Assembly (NCBI RefSeq): GCF_013745115.1
Contig: NZ_CP051151.1
Location: forward strand, 1,240,001-1,304,000
DNA length: 64,000 bases
Source: Hujiaoplasma nucleasis
GTDB taxonomy: Bacteria > Bacillota_I > Bacilli_A > Izemoplasmatales > Hujiaoplasmataceae
Reading direction: 5' to 3'
Shown here: positions 3,001 to 61,152 of the stretch, in pieces
Layout: each line of letters opens with the position of its first letter
Position numbering within the stretch: the stretch's first letter is position 1
Made by a program: the position numbers and the translations under genes
The notes under the pieces: model-generated
Told to the model about the DNA's origin: nothing
What the model saw: the letters and a program-made list of their open reading frames with translations, nothing else
Databases searched by the model: none

Positions 3001-4046
3001 ATTTCCGCAGGTAAACCAGATGCATGAGCAAATCCAATGTCTTCTCCATCAGTGTAGAAATATCCGTTTGAAGAAATACCGATAACTGTTACACCAGTAA
3101 TTCTAACGTATGATCCAATATTGGCTCCAGCTAAAGCAGTAGCGATTGAATCAGTATCTACATCAAATGTAGGCATAATACCAACATTGAATACAGCATC
3201 TGCTGTAAATTCTTCATCATTAATTGTGATAGATGCAGTCATAGTTACAGTCGTTGCTTGAGTATCATCAGGAATGATAGCACCTTCTGCTGTAATAACT
3301 GCTGGATGTGAACTTGACCAAGTAATGTCATATACATTTCCATCTTTATCAGTACCTTTTTCAGGTAAAATTAATGAATCAGCAAATGTCCATACTTCTT
3401 TATTAGGGAATGCTGTTGCAACTAAGAAGACTTGATCAGCGTATTCTTGATCAGTATAATCTTCTAATGCACCAATAGTCACAATAAATGTATACATTTC
3501 TTCTTGTGAACCATAAGATAAGGTAACATCTAAGAATAATGTTTGGTCTCCAACAGTTTTTGTTGGTCTAGTTACTGTACCATCATTAGCTAAATAATCA
3601 GTATCAGAACTTTCCCAAGTTACTGCATAACCCATAACATCTTGTCTAAATGTTACATCACTTGTTACAACATATGTATCGTCTTCAAATTCGTCATAAA
3701 GCATAATTAACGTATTAAGAGCTACTTCAATTGTAACTGGTAATGTAGGTTCTTCTGTAGTTGGCTCTTCTGTAGTAGGTTCCTCTGTTGGCTCTTCTGT
3801 TGGAGCTTCTGTAGGCTCATCAGTTGGAGCTTCTGTAGGTTCCTCTGTTGGAGCTTCTGTAGGTTCCTCTGTTGGAGCTTGAGTTGGCTCTTCTGTCGGT
3901 TCTTCTGTTGGCGCTTCAGTAGGCGCTTCAGTTGTCGTCGGAGCATCTGTAGGCTCAAGCGTTGTTTCATCTCCATTACAGCCGATAAGAACAACTGCAA
4001 ATAATGCTAAGAAGATAAAACTTAATAACTTTTTGTTAAACTTCAT
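1..4046 (-). CDS. giant multidomain surface lipoprotein (C-terminus outside window)
   Basis: Open without a stop from the ATG at 4046 (GGAGGAATAAA before it) to the window edge: at least 1348 residues. Signal peptide with lipobox LIGC, lipid-modified Cys about residue 23. Residues about 25-110 are a Thr/Pro/Glu stalk. Next come atypical bacterial Ig-like modules (a WESSDTDYLANDGTVTRP-type strand pattern), then several repeats with the pattern VTGVV..GLFLQDATG..VGDEV, which resembles the OB-fold modules of secreted nucleases. It is therefore membrane-anchored and extracellular. Module recognition is by eye. The catalytic part, if any, should lie beyond position 1. It is the last gene of the minus-strand block that includes an ABC importer. 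Alternative: a pure adhesin or scaffold without enzyme activity. Confidence 0.8.
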   Translation of the reverse strand, partial: MKFNKKLLSFIFLALFAVVLIGCNGDETTLEPTDAPTTTEAPTEAPTEEPTEEPTQAPTEEPTEAPTEEPTEAPTDEPTEAPTEEPTEEPTTEEPTTEEPTLPVTIEVALNTLIMLYDEFEDDTYVVTSDVTFRQDVMGYAVTWESSDTDYLANDGTVTRPTKTVGDQTLFLDVTLSYGSQEEMYTFIVTIGALEDYTDQEYADQVFLVATAFPNKEVWTFADSLILPEKGTDKDGNVYDITWSSSHPAVITAEGAIIPDDTQATTVTMTASITINDEEFTADAVFNVGIMPTFDVDTDSIATALAGANIGSYVRITGVTVIGISSNGYFYTDGEDIGFAHASGLPAEINDVVDILGSVAEYYGYMQLGDDKTDGTKVVWTVPSTEAISTPKINAGTIDTIIADGPAAAGDYKLFGMYEITGRIYYAPGNSDPVFIVPSDYDFVNNYDENSKPVGSALEIYDYANDTELIPFHGFEVTIHVIPNGYHSGHSNHYVWYVYTKDEVVAHFDTEADRIEAALNTLMYPEFIVEDTKLDMPTSALGVNFTYTSSDNTIIDPATGNVYAEALTSQVTVTITVNAESNSVTDSKVFEIKVGELQLTDISDVLDASSGKFKIEGIIISGEYQNTYFIQDATGAMALYTGSSSLETLLQNNLGNVVTITGTRGAYKGLEQINVETVDFVEAGTMPDPTNLDALELTSANLLPYQGYVVELTSMIVTDIAVDTYGNIVLTLTHLVNGTTVQAKWDSRVTLPTALDTALKALVEGDAIDIVAPLGWADGPLVYISTSAMIEKITLSDGQKLAADKAGLDFGGNLYEDTVISLPLVGTNGSTIAWAITAGDTNATLVDGDLTVTIPTEDATLEITATITLGEASDTAVFTYTLMNITKVNLGDFSSQTLGEVVAVQGVVYAVIGNGFFIEDATGALFVFSYDATYNVGDEVELLGEVASYEGSFQLSNLISLPAPLSTENSIEMEAIMYEHGTTTLVAAQLYTVIGTVAIEGSYNNVYIYVNETDKFEVYYRSPSTSIDALEAMVGEVVAVDMIYYNGGDTFAYTGETDGVKPYFEVTDFTELVAKTDGTNYDIAADSLVKITGVVTGNSFDGLFLQDANGVGFFLYKPFETGINIGDEVTYLGTVGAYNGARQLAYGASLVEVVSTGNDLIVTSVTADEINAFGEADAGTLYSFDGFTLKEIDGNTMVLEYLMADGVTTGIVNVRYYTNWDDLETIAEQYAIGAALPTIEFIVYNYRDGLVQADVLAAHFTDAEYIQFDANEVPDTLELSEDLIIPTAEFGSTYTITDITGDAATFLDYTTTPGTILVTQPAIGQADATGTMTVEVSLGTETPIVVNV

Positions 4047-4112: not shown

Positions 4113-6146
4113 CTATTTTGCTGCTGCAATAGCATCTTCAATAATTTGTTCTTTGGTACCATCTGTACCTAACATAACACGGCCAAAGGCATCTTCAACA
4201 TCAGCTCTTACTTGTGATGATCCAACAAATGCTTGATCAAAGAATAAGTATTCTGATTGTAAAGCTGCTGCTTGCGCTGCATATGCTTTCATTAACATTT
4301 CACCTTTTTCAGGTGTAACGCCATCTTCTTTAAATCCATTAGTAAAGTTAATGTATGATTCTTCTGCATAAACAGTATTTCTAACTGGTGAATATCCAGT
4401 TTGTTTAGCAAAGTCTAATTGTACTTCTTTACTAGTTAAATATTTTAAGAATAACCATGATGCTAATTTTTGTTGATCAGTACCAGCTGATGTGATTGAC
4501 ATATTAGTACCTTGTTGAATTGCTGTTCTATTTTCAGGCATATCAGCGTTATATGGCATTGGAGCAACACCAAATTCGAATGAAAGAATATCATCATCAG
4601 TTGTTGTTGTGTTATTAACATCTACTAAGGTTGGTGTATTATATCTAGCTCCACCAGTTGAACCAAATGTCACAACTGTTTGACCAGTTTTAAAAGCATC
4701 TGATGCATATTGGATACCCCATCTACCAGGAATAGTAAATACACCAGGTTCTCCTACAACATCTCTATAGTCAAAGAAATAACTTAACATAGCTCTTGTT
4801 TGAGGGCTATCAAATAAGATTTCTCCATCTCTATTTGAATCTAAACCTGTATATTGTCCACCCCATTGTCTTGTTAAAGTAATGAAGGCATTTGCAGGTG
4901 AATCATAAGAAATAGGAATAAAATTATCTTTGATTGCTATAATTTCAGCAGGAGTTTTATGATGGTTTGGATCTGTTGAACTATTTAAAACATCCATTAA
5001 TTGGTCAATAATTCCACCATCTTCTACTGCAACTCTAGTCATATCATCAGCAATAGCAAACAAACCTTGCCAAGTGTTAGGAATTTCATCAATAATACCT
5101 TCATCTATTAAAGCATCTATCAAGGTTTTATTATAAATCATAACTTCTGTTGATTTATTGAATGGTAATGAATAATATTCACCATCAGTTGTATATTGTG
5201 AATTTTCTTGACGATATGATAAAACGATATCTAAGAATGATTCTTCAACAACGTCAGGATTAAAACCAAATGTTGGATGATAGATAAATGGTGTTAGTGG
5301 AATAACAGCTTCATAATCGATATATTCCATAACATGGTCAGGGTAACCTTGAATGATATTTGGTAAGGTTCCACCTTTAATAGCGTTTACTGTATTTTCT
5401 CTTAACTCATCATAAGTAGCAGCTGATTTTTCAATGACAACTGTAATATTTGGATATAAAGCTTCAAATGATTGGCCATATGAATTTAGTGCTGCTGAAA
5501 TAGTATCACCATTAGAATGATATAAAGTAATGGTAATTGGTTCAGTCGTTAATTCATCTGGAATTGAATACTCAGTTAATTCTTTAACAGTAATTGTAAC
5601 CAATCTTTCAATATAGTTTCCATCACTATCTTCTACTCCAACATATACTTCATAAAAACCTTTACGAGTTAATGTATATCTACCATAAACTTCGATATCA
5701 GCAGTGATATCTCCATCTTCAGCATCCATAGCTTTAACTCCATCTAAGATATCATAGTCTTGAGAACCTAAGTAATATGATTGGTTAGGGAATAAACCTA
5801 CGAATGTAGGTGCAGTATCTGTGTTTGGATCTTCACCAGTCGTTGGCTCTTCAGTTGTAACTGCTGTAGGTTCCTCCGTAGGAACTTCAGTAGTAACTTC
5901 TCCTGTTGGAACTTCTGTAGGCTCTTCAGTAGGTCCTTCTGTTGGAGCTTCTGTAGGCTCTTCAGTAGGTGCTTGTGTAGGCTCTTCAGTAGGTGCTTGT
6001 GTAGGTTCCTCTGTTGGTGCCTCTGTTGGTGTTTCTGTTGTAACTTCACCTGTTGGTTCTTCTGTAACAACTCCATTACCATCACATCCAATTAATGCAA
6101 TAGCAAATAATGCCAAGAAGAATATACTCAATAATTTCTTTTTCAT
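4113..6146 (-). CDS. ABC transporter extracellular solute-binding lipoprotein with Ig-like insert
   Basis: Predicted lipid-anchored binding component of a carbohydrate-type ABC importer. Start chosen at ATG 6146 (GAGGAGGAAAATA in front); a TTG 15 bases upstream lies inside that ribosome binding site. Lipobox LIGC with Cys about residue 21; residues about 25-110 are Thr/Pro/Glu repeats. Residues about 112-190 form an Ig-like domain (DAEDGDITADIEV..GFYEVYVGVEDSDGN) like the DUF5011 type. From about 200 to the end is a family-1 solute-binding fold (ITLYHSNGD, PLTPFI, SITSAG). At 677 residues it is much longer than usual (about 400-450) because of the stalk and Ig domain. The permeases and ATPase are upstream on the same strand. 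The substrate is not readable from sequence. Confidence 0.88.
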   Translation of the reverse strand: MKKKLLSIFFLALFAIALIGCDGNGVVTEEPTGEVTTETPTEAPTEEPTQAPTEEPTQAPTEEPTEAPTEGPTEEPTEVPTGEVTTEVPTEEPTAVTTEEPTTGEDPNTDTAPTFVGLFPNQSYYLGSQDYDILDGVKAMDAEDGDITADIEVYGRYTLTRKGFYEVYVGVEDSDGNYIERLVTITVKELTEYSIPDELTTEPITITLYHSNGDTISAALNSYGQSFEALYPNITVVIEKSAATYDELRENTVNAIKGGTLPNIIQGYPDHVMEYIDYEAVIPLTPFIYHPTFGFNPDVVEESFLDIVLSYRQENSQYTTDGEYYSLPFNKSTEVMIYNKTLIDALIDEGIIDEIPNTWQGLFAIADDMTRVAVEDGGIIDQLMDVLNSSTDPNHHKTPAEIIAIKDNFIPISYDSPANAFITLTRQWGGQYTGLDSNRDGEILFDSPQTRAMLSYFFDYRDVVGEPGVFTIPGRWGIQYASDAFKTGQTVVTFGSTGGARYNTPTLVDVNNTTTTDDDILSFEFGVAPMPYNADMPENRTAIQQGTNMSITSAGTDQQKLASWLFLKYLTSKEVQLDFAKQTGYSPVRNTVYAEESYINFTNGFKEDGVTPEKGEMLMKAYAAQAAALQSEYLFFDQAFVGSSQVRADVEDAFGRVMLGTDGTKEQIIEDAIAAAK

Positions 6147-11408: not shown

Positions 11409-13354
11409 TCCCAGAACCCTAAATTATTATCTTTAGCAAATTTTTCTGCTTCATCAAACCATCTATACATATATCTATTGTTAACAATTAATCTAGAAGT
11501 TGTATTATATTCATCTCTACTAAATCCGTTTTTAACCAATTGATAATTCACTAAAACCATACCGGTTAAATATTCAGTATATACTAATTCTCCACTACTA
11601 TTTAAGATATCTATAGATAATATATCAGTTCCTAAATCAACCCAAACTAAACCTAGATGTCTTGAATAATTATCTTGTGTTCCTAAGTCAGGATCGCTTT
11701 GTAAATAGATTTTTTTATTATTGTTTGCTGCATATTGCAAAATTGTTGTTGTATAGGCTTTCGCCTCTAAAGACCAAGGTTCAGGATCTCCATAAATATT
11801 ATTGCCATACTCGTCTTGACCAATAACAGGTCTAGTTTCAGTAGTATCATTTCCTAAAAACCTTACTCTTTGATCTCCATCAAAACCTGGAGAAAAAGCA
11901 ACAGTATCTCCGTCACTAATATGACCTAAAGTCACTGAAACTAATCCAGACTCTTCAGCGTAAAAACCATACCCTAACATTTCTGAAATAGTGAACTGAT
12001 CCATCGTTAACTGTAACTCATTAGAAATAGGGTGTTCACCAAGGATTTCAAAATATCCTGGAACAAAACTTTGCCAATCAAAAATATTAAATATTCGACT
12101 TCCTGATTCGATAGTACTTCTTCTAACGAAAATTTCATTGTCCATTAAAGATGTTCTATCACCAACTTGATAAATGGTATCAATATAGGTGTTATTTTGG
12201 TTGACTCTTAATTGAATGGTATCATTTCCATCAAAAATCAAATCATCTGATCTTAAATCAGCATATCTTTGTAAAGAAGCGGTTGAACTTTTCGCAACTA
12301 TTAAATAAGTTTCGTTGGCAAGTAATTGCCCATCTAGGTCTACCCTATGGGTGACTTCATATGAACCGTATTCAAAAATAGCGATATGATAATTTGATAA
12401 GTCAATAGTAGTATCAGTAGCATTATAAATTTCTAAACCAGTATCAGTGTCACTATCAATATATTTAGAAATCATTAATGAAGTTTCATCATCAGTAAAA
12501 CTGTTCTTATATAAAACAACTTCGATAGTAGATACTTCGTCATAATAATCTCCAGCTTGATGATCAACATAATAAGCAAAAGTATCTTCAGGATAATCAT
12601 CATCCAAAACATATGAGAAAGTATAATTAATCATTAAAGCAGATAATTCACTAGAAATTTGTCTTTTAATTTTCCCATCTAAGTCAGGTAATTGAGCAGA
12701 ATTATAACCAACATAAATTATAAACTCTTCATCTGGCGAAACAATATCTCCTATTTGATGATCCTTATAACCAGCAAAAGTTTGGTCTTCCACGCTATTG
12801 TCAGTAATAATTTCAATATCATAATTTGTGATTCCTCTTCTCATTAAGTATCTATCAATATCGATATCCTTTAAGCCAGTTAAATCTGGTAAATATATAG
12901 TTTGGGTTGATAAAACAACTTCAATTGTTTCATTAACAAAAACACTTTGTCCTTCTTCAAAAGATGAACCATATCTAATAAAAGTACCTTCTTCTTCATC
13001 TAAATCACTTTCATAAATAAAGTTATAAGATAAAGATAAGGCATTAAACGAATCAATGATTTCATTTTCACTTAAACCATTTAAATCGGGCAAAACAACA
13101 GAAGCAATTGTTGTCGGTTCTTCTGTTGTAGGTTCTTCAGTTGTGATTTCCACTGTCGTTGGTTCTTCTGTGGTTGGTTCTTGAGTTGGAGCTTCTGTAG
13201 GTTCTTCAGTCGTTAAATCTGATGTTATTTCTTCAGTTGTCTGCTCCAAAGTCGTAGATTCAGTAGGTTCTAAAGTACTTGAATCTCCAGTACATGAGAT
13301 GAAAACAAATAATCCCATGACAAAAACAAGAGATAAAATAAATTTATTCTTCAT
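11405..13354 (-). CDS. lipoprotein: PASTA-like repeats, lamin-tail-like domain, thermonuclease-like domain
   Basis: 649 residues. Start chosen at ATG 13354 (AAGGAGAGTTTTACA) over an ATG 18 bases upstream. Lipobox FISC, Cys about 21; Thr/Glu/Pro stalk to about residue 70. Three consecutive about 65-residue units of PASTA pattern follow (LPDLNGLSENEIIDSFNALS, LPDLTGLKDIDIDRYLMRRG, LPDLDGKIKRQISSELSALM). Next is a lamin-tail-type segment (GLEIYNATDTTIDLSNYHI), then a C-terminal Staphylococcal-nuclease-like domain (DGDTVAFSPGFDGDQRVRFL then DTTETRP; later RHLGLVWVD and NNLGFW). The active site reads like a TNase family member that may be degenerate. Probably digests or binds nucleic acid at the cell surface; activity is inferred. 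Confidence 0.75.
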   Translation of the reverse strand: MKNKFILSLVFVMGLFVFISCTGDSSTLEPTESTTLEQTTEEITSDLTTEEPTEAPTQEPTTEEPTTVEITTEEPTTEEPTTIASVVLPDLNGLSENEIIDSFNALSLSYNFIYESDLDEEEGTFIRYGSSFEEGQSVFVNETIEVVLSTQTIYLPDLTGLKDIDIDRYLMRRGITNYDIEIITDNSVEDQTFAGYKDHQIGDIVSPDEEFIIYVGYNSAQLPDLDGKIKRQISSELSALMINYTFSYVLDDDYPEDTFAYYVDHQAGDYYDEVSTIEVVLYKNSFTDDETSLMISKYIDSDTDTGLEIYNATDTTIDLSNYHIAIFEYGSYEVTHRVDLDGQLLANETYLIVAKSSTASLQRYADLRSDDLIFDGNDTIQLRVNQNNTYIDTIYQVGDRTSLMDNEIFVRRSTIESGSRIFNIFDWQSFVPGYFEILGEHPISNELQLTMDQFTISEMLGYGFYAEESGLVSVTLGHISDGDTVAFSPGFDGDQRVRFLGNDTTETRPVIGQDEYGNNIYGDPEPWSLEAKAYTTTILQYAANNNKKIYLQSDPDLGTQDNYSRHLGLVWVDLGTDILSIDILNSSGELVYTEYLTGMVLVNYQLVKNGFSRDEYNTTSRLIVNNRYMYRWFDEAEKFAKDNNLGFWE

Positions 13355-58528: not shown

Positions 58529-58556
58529 AGAATAAGTAGATTTCTCTACTTATTCT
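58529..58556. terminator. terminator shared by dusB and HD-GYP gene
   Basis: AGAATAAGTAGA/TCTACTTATTCT, loop TTTC; overlaps the last codons of the HD-GYP gene. Confidence 0.7.
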
Positions 58557-59307
58557 CAAGGACATTATTTATGAAAGTTTTAACTATATTTTTATCAAAT
58601 TGTGTTCCAGCGTTTTTGATTAATTCGGCAATGGCTTCTTCTTGAGTCATTGCTTTTTTATATGGTCTATCAGAAGTCATTGCTTCAAAAGCATCAACTA
58701 CAGAAATAATTCTAGATATAAATGGTATTTCATCACCTTTTAGACCTTCAGGATAACCTTTTCCATCGATTCTTTCATGATGATACTTAACATATAAAGC
58801 GATATTATTAAATTGGGGGAATTTCAATAATGTTTTATATGATAAGACTGCATGATTCCTCATTATTTTCCATTCATCTTTATTTAAAGAACTAGGTTTG
58901 TTTAAAATGTTTTGAGGAATTTTATTCTTACCAACATCATGATACATTGCAGCTTTTTTTAATTTCAGTAGTTCATTATCATCTAAATCTAAAGCTTCGC
59001 CAAGTTGATAGCAGAGTTCACTTACTTTTACAGAATGATCAAACACTTGATTATCTATAGAGAAGAATTGGGGATTATTTTCTAATAAATTAAATGGTTC
59101 ATTCTTTGTTATTGCATAATTACTAAAATTAAAGTGATGATATAAATGCGCCATGCCACACTGATTGTTTAAAGCGTAATAACAATTACCTGGAATCTCA
59201 TCTGTGATTATATTTGGAAATTGATTTAGACATAACAAACAATAAGAATCAAGATTCTTAAAAGTTAATTGTGCTATTCGATCATTTATTTGCTTTCTTA
59301 ACTCCAT
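58546..59307 (-). CDS. HD-GYP-type phosphohydrolase
   Basis: 253 residues. The C-terminal half is HD-GYP: YHDVGKNKIP, then HHERIDGKGYPEGLKGDEIP and VVDAFEAMTSDRPY, the full HHExxDGxGYP signature of cyclic-di-GMP (or related dinucleotide) phosphodiesterases. The N-terminal about 90 residues hold CLLC, GNC and NQC with a nearby His, possibly a metal or redox sensor. A perfect 30-bp element at 59428-59457 lies in its promoter region and recurs at the neighbouring peptide gene. RBS TGGAGCGAATACT. Confidence 0.87.
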   Translation of the reverse strand: MELRKQINDRIAQLTFKNLDSYCLLCLNQFPNIITDEIPGNCYYALNNQCGMAHLYHHFNFSNYAITKNEPFNLLENNPQFFSIDNQVFDHSVKVSELCYQLGEALDLDDNELLKLKKAAMYHDVGKNKIPQNILNKPSSLNKDEWKIMRNHAVLSYKTLLKFPQFNNIALYVKYHHERIDGKGYPEGLKGDEIPFISRIISVVDAFEAMTSDRPYKKAMTQEEAIAELIKNAGTQFDKNIVKTFINNVLENK

Positions 59308-59427
59308 AGTATTCGCTCCATTATCGTATAATAAAGAGACGAATAAATGTTAAATAATGTATGCATTATTTTCACCTATTTCATCTTACTACAAAACTCA
59401 CACCTATATTTTCGTTGAATTTCGTTA

Positions 59428-59457
59428 AAAAGACAACGGCGTATATGTCATACATTT
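59428..59457 (-). repeat. 30-bp element, copy A (before HD-GYP gene)
   Basis: Reads, on the minus strand, AAATGTATGACATATACGCC and continues GTTGTCTTTT. Identical over all 30 bases to copy B at 60400-60429. About 120 bases upstream of the HD-GYP start and in the same orientation to it as copy B is to the peptide gene. Contains GTAT/ATAC half-sites 5 bases apart. Candidate operator. Confidence 0.75.
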
Positions 59458-59476: not shown

Positions 59477-60385
59477 TCAAAATTCTTTCTTTATTTTATC
59501 TATAATGAACTCTTTACAATCAATATTAGTGTCTTTTTTAATAGTATTTATAAAATGATTCCGTTTAAAATCATCATAATGTGATAAGAAACAAATAGTT
59601 TGTGTTAACGCTAACTCAAATTCTTCATGATTCTTTAGTTCGTAATGAGCTAATGCTTTAAAATAATAAAAATATTCTATAGAGTAATATGAATAATTAT
59701 GTTTACTGTACTTAATTGCTTCATTTGCTATTTCTATGAGCTCGTTAAATCTATTCATTATACCTAAATTCTTAATAATCCAGAAAAACACTTGAGAATT
59801 GAATAGAGCATTTCCACCTAAGAGTAGTTTATCATTTTTTCTTAGATTGATTATCTTCTCCAATATCTTTGTTCTGTCTTCATCACTGTACTCCATAATA
59901 ACACCCAAAAGATAAATTTCGCTATCATGTAAAACTGACTTATTCATAATTTCCGTGAAATTAGATTTGGTCTTAAGTAAAAGAATCATATTCTCTGTGT
60001 TGATTTGGTGACCGTAATACTTATGCAAAACCAATGCAATTTGGTAAAAAACCTCTATTTCTTCATCTAAAAGCATAAAACTCTTTTTGCCTTTAATTAG
60101 TTTAGATGCTTGATCTAATTTTTTACTCATAACTAAATTTAAATATTCTCGTACTAAATCAATCTCTTTTGCTGCATAAGTTTGATAATTTGATATTAGT
60201 TTTAGTAGTGGAATTTGTAGTTTATTTGCTAACTTAATAATGACTTCGAAGGGAACTTCTGATTCCCCACTTCGATATCGATAGTATTGTCTTTGAGATA
60301 TTACATCGTGTAAATAAAATTCTTGATTCATTTTTCGATCATATCTTAGGTTTTCCATATAATTTAGTAATTTGACAATATCCAT
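59477..60385 (-). CDS. HTH regulator with helical-repeat C-domain (Rgg/PlcR/RRNPP-like)
   Basis: 302 residues. N-terminal helix-turn-helix, about residues 5-60 (HDVISQRQYYRYRSGESEVP, FEVIIKLANKLQIPLLKLI). The remaining about 240 residues are all-helical, with TPR-like pairs (YYFKALAHYELKNHEEFELA). This is the build of RRNPP regulators (Rgg, PlcR, ComR), which bind short peptides in the C-domain. RBS AAGGAGTAAAC. Copy B of the 30-bp element lies 15-44 bases upstream of its start, so it is probably self-regulated. Divergent from the repeat-peptide gene. Class assignment is by architecture, not by search. Confidence 0.7.
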   Translation of the reverse strand: MDIVKLLNYMENLRYDRKMNQEFYLHDVISQRQYYRYRSGESEVPFEVIIKLANKLQIPLLKLISNYQTYAAKEIDLVREYLNLVMSKKLDQASKLIKGKKSFMLLDEEIEVFYQIALVLHKYYGHQINTENMILLLKTKSNFTEIMNKSVLHDSEIYLLGVIMEYSDEDRTKILEKIINLRKNDKLLLGGNALFNSQVFFWIIKNLGIMNRFNELIEIANEAIKYSKHNYSYYSIEYFYYFKALAHYELKNHEEFELALTQTICFLSHYDDFKRNHFINTIKKDTNIDCKEFIIDKIKKEF

Positions 60386-60399
60386 GTTTACTCCTTATA

Positions 60400-60429
60400 A
60401 AATGTATGACATATACGCCGTTGTCTTTT
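60400..60429 (+). repeat. 30-bp element, copy B (regulator/peptide divergent promoter)
   Basis: Exact match to copy A. Sits between the divergent regulator and peptide genes, 64 bases before the peptide ATG and overlapping the likely regulator promoter. Candidate operator. Confidence 0.75.
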
Positions 60430-60444
60430 GTTTGAAATAATACT

Positions 60445-60478
60445 AATATATAAATATACAAACGTATATTTATATATT
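60445..60478. promoter_or_regulatory. 15-bp perfect palindrome upstream of the repeat-peptide gene
   Basis: AATATATAAATATAC, spacer AAAC, GTATATTTATATATT. Ends three bases before the run of G's in the ribosome binding site (AGGGGGATTATTTT), so it may be an operator or an mRNA hairpin next to the initiation site. Confidence 0.6.
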
Positions 60479-60492
60479 AGGGGGATTATTTT

Positions 60493-60831
60493 ATGAAAAA
60501 ATTAGCGTTATTTTTGTTTTTGATTGGTTTAGCGATTGGGCTAAATATGTATGAAGAAGGTTTTTTTAATGATCAAGAAAATGTTGATCTAATGGGTTTT
60601 GATGATGACGATTTTCCAGATTTTGTAAACATCGGCTTTGAAGATGATGACTTTCCAGATTTTGTAAACATTGGCTTTGAAGATGACGATTTTCCAGATT
60701 TTGTAAACATCGGCTTTGAAGATGATGACTTTCCAGATTTTGTAAACATCGGCTTTGAAGATGATGACTTTCCAGATTTTGTAAATATCGGCTTTGAAGA
60801 TGATGACTTTCCAGATTTTGTAAATATTTAA
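60493..60831 (+). CDS. tandem-repeat secreted peptide precursor (candidate pheromone)
   Basis: 112 residues. N-terminus MKKLALFLFLIGLAIGLNMY is a short basic-hydrophobic export signal; a 14-residue acidic spacer follows, then six contiguous 13-residue units GFEDDDFPDFVNI (first unit GFDDDDFPDFVNI) running to the stop. No cysteine, no lipobox. Divergent from an RRNPP-like regulator. The layout suits a precursor releasing many copies of a short Asp/Phe-rich peptide. Alternatives: a surface acidic repeat protein or a repressor-antagonist peptide. No homologue recognised. Confidence 0.7.
   Translation: MKKLALFLFLIGLAIGLNMYEEGFFNDQENVDLMGFDDDDFPDFVNIGFEDDDFPDFVNIGFEDDDFPDFVNIGFEDDDFPDFVNIGFEDDDFPDFVNIGFEDDDFPDFVNI
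60595..60828 (+). repeat. six tandem 39-bp coding repeats
   Basis: Six units of 39 bases. Differences among units are almost all at third codon positions (GGT/GGC, GAT/GAC, AAC/AAT, ATC/ATT); the only amino-acid change is Asp to Glu in unit 1. Confidence 0.95.
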
Positions 60832-61152
60832 TAGTTTTAATAGTTCAATAAATATTTTAATTTTTATTTTCTCTACGTTTATTATACTACATAACTCACA
60901 TACAAGCATAATAAACTATGAATCTGAATAAAAACTCACAAATTATATAAAAAAAGCTTAAGTACTTATTTCACATATTTTATCTTAACAAAACTCACAA
61001 TTTTATAAAAGTAAAATCATGAAATACAGTATTAAATATTCTAATTATATTAAGCTTTTTTTGTTATACCATAAAACATTTTTCATTAAACAAATAATTT
61101 CTATTGTCATATGATATAATTATTTTGGCAAAATTAATGAAAAGGTGATTTT
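60832..61152. other. intergenic region with repeated octamers and an inverted repeat
   Basis: AACTCACA occurs at 60893-60900, 60933-60940 and 60992-60999, and once more before the HD-GYP gene at 59395-59402, all on the plus strand. A 13-bp inverted repeat AAAAAAAGCTTAA (60949-60961) / TTAAGCTTTTTTT (61050-61062) bounds about 90 bases. The second arm's T-run could terminate the peptide transcript. No open reading frame of note. Confidence 0.55.

Follow-up and report, generated by a model that had tools for sequence, protein, structure and literature searches.

A candidate RRNPP-type peptide signalling system with a tandem-unit precursor and a probable link to c-di-GMP in the wall-less bacterium Hujiaoplasma nucleasis

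The deep-sea bacterium Hujiaoplasma nucleasis zrk29, a wall-less member of the Izemoplasmatales that is in culture (PMC10470597), has a genome of 1,808,583 bp in one contig, and the 64,000-nucleotide stretch of it analysed here (hereafter, the window) carries a small gene whose product consists, beyond a leader, of near-identical acidic units, and which is transcribed away from the gene of a putative regulator. What such a pair is for, and whether the repeat protein is the source of a signal read by the product of its neighbour, is the question that this locus raises. The first-pass annotation had proposed an RRNPP-like regulator beside a precursor releasing several copies of an acidic and aromatic peptide. 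From the analysis described below, we consider it probable that the pair belongs to a peptide signalling system of RRNPP type in wall-less Mycoplasmatota, with feedback on the precursor and control of a c-di-GMP enzyme. The features concerned are collected in Table 1.

Table 1. Features of the locus (window coordinates) and of a companion gene in relatives (locus coordinates).
Feature	Position	Strand	Description	Basis
Peptide precursor gene	60493..60831	+	leader and six 13-residue acidic units, 112 aa	translation; homologues
Leader region	60493..60594	+	34 aa: basic at its start, then a hydrophobic stretch and a short linker	translation
Six-unit array	60595..60828	+	39-nt period, differences nearly all synonymous	translation; repeat analysis
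Inverted repeat	60443..60480	+	perfect, 17 bp; overlaps the -10 and reaches the peptide-gene ribosome-binding site	
Operator 1	60400..60429	+	AAATGTATGACATATACGCCGTTGTCTTTT, ahead of the peptide gene; -10 TAATAT at 60444-60449	
RRNPP-type regulator	59477..60385	-	302 aa, HTH and helical peptide-receptor-like domain	Pfam, AlphaFold2, Foldseek
Operator 2	59428..59457	-	same 30 bp without mismatch, in inverted orientation, ahead of the HD-GYP gene; -10-like GAAAAT at 59408-59413	
HD-GYP domain protein	58546..59307	-	253 aa, motifs HDVGK and HHERIDGKGYPEGL	predicted c-di-GMP phosphodiesterase
90-aa companion protein	L067:3482-3754, L071:3273-3545, L115:1489-1797, others		absent at the window locus	alignment A2

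Translation of the small gene agrees with the first-pass description of six contiguous 13-residue units following the leader (MKKLALFLFLIGLAIGLNMYEEGFFNDQENVDLM), the last running up to the stop codon, with one correction: units 2-6 are GFEDDDFPDFVNI as described, but unit 1 is GFDDDDFPDFVNI (starting GFDDDD). The precursor has a net charge of -33 over its 112 residues, and the composition of its leader, which was judged by eye and has no clear AXA site, suggests export through Sec. Searches of Pfam and NCBIfam gave no family name, surface anchor or known domain for it, and small matches to UBA_3 and Psb35 were rejected as compositional. By Tandem Repeats Finder the array (period 39, 5.8 copies, 94% match) is by far the strongest tandem repeat of the whole window, which elsewhere holds genes with short-period repeats coding low-complexity stretches (3744-3934, 5854-6038 and 13109-13196); antisense ORFs over the array (60573-60749 and 60589-60909) are mechanical products of the repeat. 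Since nine synonymous differences against one non-synonymous separate its units, the array is neither a chance product nor a very recent duplication.

The main test to which the original proposal was open, adjacency of the two genes in relatives, came out in its favour, with the pair kept across several families. A regulator search and a separate repeat-protein search of relatives led to the same loci, side by side, and the regulator alignment, run against 84,980 species, returned 51 loci, all in Mycoplasmatota-type lineages (Izemoplasmatales, Acholeplasmataceae and Haloplasma, as judged from titles); as a query against genome contigs the repeat protein gave no match because its unit varies too much, and it was the regulator alignment that succeeded. 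Upstream sequence was readable at 48 regulator loci, from Izemoplasmatales and Acholeplasmatales, and at 45 of these a divergent ORF encodes a hydrophobic leader together with at least one acidic unit, a count that takes in three distant paralogue-type loci (L108, L111, L112) with weaker single units. Nothing recognisable as such an ORF lies beside the regulator homologues of L106 and L110, or beside the distant ones of L025, L028 and L031, and in Haloplasma (L075) a DDPDELPFPDYPKK unit sits behind an in-frame stop.

Comparison of these precursors points to the unit as the part under selection. Their unit number varies freely, from one to at least 11, and the unit sequence is constrained, its frame being kept across genera in variants such as FDDDDYPELIN, FDDEDFPEFIN, FEELEDPEYVRI, FDDRDEPEFIN, FEDSGEPEYIL, FHDKEEPEYVRL and FDDHHIPEHVTV; in most arrays the final unit stops exactly at the stop codon. 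Codon-by-codon comparison of neighbouring units in about 36 arrays yielded 450 synonymous against 53 non-synonymous differences (pS 0.36, pN 0.010), and the units are therefore old enough for silent drift and yet held identical as peptides. At L073 unrelated spacers lie between three identical cores (DFDDHHIPEHVTV), and at L090 a single core follows a spacer. The shortest precursors have 44-55 residues and one unit; since one-unit and seven-unit precursors occur as sisters (L084/L086, tree support 100/97) and other one-unit precursors (L067, L068) are basal to the window clade, array size has changed repeatedly, and the one-unit precursors show the unit to be the putative functional element.

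The gene on the other side was described in the first-pass annotation as a divergent HTH and helical-repeat regulator, and both this layout, with 107 nt between the start codons, and the RRNPP-like assignment are borne out. Its product, within the range of about 250-500 aa of RRNPP(A) receptors, has an N-terminal HTH with a weak Pfam HTH_3 match (E 2.6e-4, just under the curated cut-off) followed by an all-helical, TPR-like remainder, and the AlphaFold2 model has a mean pLDDT of 91.3. That model resembles known peptide receptors: a Foldseek search of the PDB ranked PlcR-PapR best (E 2.6e-7), then ComR, Rgg2/Rgg3 and PrgX, and the 36 matches at E <= 0.001 comprise PlcR, ComR, Rgg, PrgX, NrpR of S. 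salivarius and an uncharacterised Listeria regulator. VIA-align gave Z 17.6 over 273 residues against PlcR (2qfc), compared with about 12 for unrelated helical repeats, with a large rmsd (8.5 A) that probably comes from differently hinged domains. The C-domain is neutral overall (-1); its conserved positions include K177, K205, K243, R275, K284 and aromatics at 238-242, which, if they line the groove, would suit an acidic, aromatic ligand. The genome also encodes an Opp cluster (SBP_bac_5, two permeases, one of them with OppC_N, and an ABC ATPase with oligo_HPY), so that oligopeptide permease genes for import accompany the receptor and the adjacent small leader-bearing precursor, as in RRNPP(A) systems. 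An N-terminal HTH sets the regulator apart from the Rap phosphatase subfamily, and the gene order, with the precursor divergent in the window and in relatives, departs from the downstream codirectional one of the PlcR-PapR subfamily.

The first-pass annotation had overlooked a common operator and the gene of a c-di-GMP enzyme, which likely give the circuit its output. Two identical 30-bp copies (best shuffled match, 12) flank the regulator gene, each oriented toward its own promoter, one that of the peptide gene and the other that of the HD-GYP gene across the regulator. About 25 related loci have an equivalent pair, with the core TA[CT]GACATAT[AC]CGC and the -10 box 25 nt past this core in both promoters. 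The 14-bp core pattern TAYGACATATMCGC has 65 matches across 90 genomes of the order, against 3 for its reversed control, and usually occurs as two copies, one on each side of the regulator gene and about 1 kb from each other; a related site (GGACATATACGCCCTGTT) in Acholeplasmataceae stands ahead of the peptide gene only. The operator occupies the expected place of the -35 box, a layout that appears to be that of activator-dependent promoters, and from the co-occurrence we infer that the regulator itself binds it. That the inverted pair might be the ends of an invertible segment or mobile element was rejected because it lies at both promoters, recurs at about 25 diverged loci and keeps a fixed -10 spacing, and motif matches at L160-L162 (TATGACATATACGC, with no -10 at 25 nt) look like chance. 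The 17-bp inverted repeat covering the -10 of the peptide gene is kept in sister genomes; Acholeplasmataceae have a different palindrome at its position (CCTAATTG...CAATTAGG).

The HD-GYP gene, likely the second target of the regulator, occupies a position that in most Izemoplasmatales loci belongs to a c-di-GMP enzyme with its motifs present, namely an HD-GYP protein in the clade that includes the window and an EAL or GGDEF-EAL protein in its larger sister clade, where the same operator precedes the peptide gene and the EAL or GGDEF-EAL gene. Because HD-GYP and EAL are two unrelated folds with the same predicted reaction, this replacement argues for c-di-GMP breakdown as the putative selected output; Acholeplasmataceae and the ABC-neighbour clade (L067, L068, L070) have a downstream gene other than one for a c-di-GMP enzyme. 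The genome has 21 GGDEF and 6 HD_5 domains over cut-off. The HD-GYP protein of the window also has an N-terminal cysteine cluster (CLLCL...C...C) outside its known domain.

Extra operator copies in relatives, mostly with a -10 at 25 nt, stand ahead of C39-peptidase ABC exporters (L134, L158), other ABC transporters, SLATT-type 2TM proteins and GGDEF-EAL proteins. At four loci (L136, L138, L141, L147) the gene behind the operator codes for an RHS-repeat-like protein (L136, a weak Pfam match) or a large secreted protein, that of L141 having a CBM96 module; these candidate targets suggest a possible link between the signal and antagonism. In the genome of H. nucleasis itself, the operator-25-ANNAT pattern fits exactly three places, operators 1 and 2 and a site at 1477683-1477726. 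Some 0.3 kb downstream of the last begins an hsdM-hsdS-hsdR operon with a GajA/NsnB-like ATPase, and this third site is only suggestive as an operator because the pattern was loosened after it had been seen. The region (G000:C1:1477683-1486000, L163), in which the type I restriction-modification operon is followed by the ATPase gene, may represent signal-controlled phage defence.

The circuit that we favour would begin with export of the precursor through its leader and its cleavage into acidic and aromatic peptides of about 12-13 residues or shorter, several identical copies arising from each array. Re-imported, plausibly by the Opp transporter, the peptide would bind the helical domain of the regulator, which in turn would bind the TATGACATAT(A/C)CGC...TGT element that stands in for a strong -35 box and activate both the precursor promoter, giving positive feedback, and the promoter of the c-di-GMP enzyme gene; past a threshold of peptide, cellular c-di-GMP would change and most likely fall. 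The layout of the precursor, a leader with tandem cores, is also that of multi-core RiPP precursors, and the repeat gene could instead be a regulated output, a secreted antagonistic or RiPP-like peptide, with the regulator sensing something else, as the antagonism and defence genes behind the operator in relatives (C39 exporters, the weak RHS-repeat-like match, large secreted and SLATT-type proteins) might suggest. We think this unlikely, as the regulator has a peptide-receptor fold and is paired even with precursors of a single C-terminal unit, as in PapR or Phr precursors, and neither a modifying enzyme nor an immunity gene regularly accompanies the precursor, whose neighbours are HD-GYP, EamA and Dus genes in the window and EAL, GGDEF-EAL and RlmI-like methyltransferase genes in relatives.

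A plain structural or ion-binding role for the repeat protein, as an acidic protein of the surface or the medium next to an ordinary local regulator, would fit its charge, its repetitiveness and a hydrophobic N-terminal stretch able to serve as an anchor, but is highly improbable given single-unit relatives of as few as 44-55 residues, a free unit number with a constrained unit sequence, and the absence of any surface-anchor or known domain. RRNPP circuits can act at short range, and the same arrangement might let the regulator sense peptide within the producing cell, as a read-out of export or proteolysis, and not population density; the presence of an Opp transporter able to import peptides speaks against this self-sensing, which we regard as quite unlikely and on which nothing else here discriminates. 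None of these alternatives explains the receptor fold together with the one-unit precursors as well as a signalling circuit does. A wider form of the latter is put forward tentatively: a peptide quorum circuit that through one short operator would lower c-di-GMP and, depending on species, also turn on genes for exporters and secreted proteins as well as phage-defence operons, of which the type I restriction-modification operon may be the case in this genome, with the pheromone dose set by the number of tandem units.

Among known systems, PlcR-PapR of the Bacillus cereus group is the closest, as the best fold match (2qfc, 3u3w) with an HTH, a helical receptor, an adjacent leader-bearing precursor and, likely, activator-type autoinduction; it differs in sequence (about 20% identity), in its operator, in a precursor that is downstream and not a divergent array of many tandem units, and in a regulon of exoenzymes in place of a c-di-GMP enzyme. 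PapR7 is ADLPFEF (PMC6568020), acidic with proline and aromatics and close in kind to the DDFPDFV found here, so the first-pass suggestion that such a peptide would be unlike most known signals is not supported. Multi-copy pheromone precursors are likewise established in Bacillales: those of Rap, NprR, PlcR and AimR carry as many as six (PMC9765709) or eight (PMC11343458) copies, and in phage Phr precursors both have been shown to be processed and active (PMC9765709 / PMC11343458). The idea that such precursors would be new for bacteria is thus not supported either. What endures of the original interpretation draws on the fold, the conservation, the identical repeats and the one-unit precursors. 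Like the present arrays, multi-copy Phr, NprX, AimP and PapR precursors hold several identical or near-identical pheromones with the C-terminal unit in register with the stop, but they are a minority of their kind, whereas arrays here occur in most of the family, reach at least 11 units and belong to wall-less Mycoplasmatota. Rgg-SHP and ComR-ComS of streptococci share the receptor fold and a separate short precursor gene beside the regulator, and differ in their short hydrophobic peptides, exported by PptAB, for which no duplications were found (PMC9765709). The Alo systems of Paenibacillus polymyxa (PMC7425212) are also lineage-specific pairs of RRNPP-like receptor and leader peptide, with divergent TPRs missed by standard models, and differ in precursors of 32-50 aa placed immediately downstream.

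The lineage, arrays as the rule, the divergent layout and a single operator joining precursor to c-di-GMP enzyme appear to be new: a limited literature search turned up no paper that joins an RRNPP circuit directly to an HD-GYP or EAL phosphodiesterase gene, and none on an RRNPP system in Mollicutes, Tenericutes or Mycoplasmatota was found in the open-access literature searched. RRNPP_detector limits precursors to 100 aa and requires a TPR model match (PMC10075063), and such systems would escape it because their precursors, like that of the window at 112 aa, can exceed this limit and the receptor has no TPR model match. If the favoured reading is correct, peptide signalling would extend to wall-less lineages, some of them cultured, and be tied there to c-di-GMP through a common DNA site; the natural span of one to at least 11 identical units would mean that the dose of pheromone can evolve and be put to the test, and the operator would offer ready access to the regulon.

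Many relatives have, after the peptide gene, a conserved 90-aa protein with a confident four-helix model (pLDDT 96.6) and invariant E9, G12, T16, I17, Y20, T21, Y29, Y56 and H75, for which no structural relative in the PDB and no Pfam or NCBIfam family was found. The H. nucleasis genome itself holds a second, distant copy of the system (G000:C1:966619-968128; L002, L115, L118), with a regulator of 20% identity, a leader peptide of 44 aa that is encoded divergently and ends in ADGFDDIDYEEVDIGSQ, and a helical protein of 90-102 aa.
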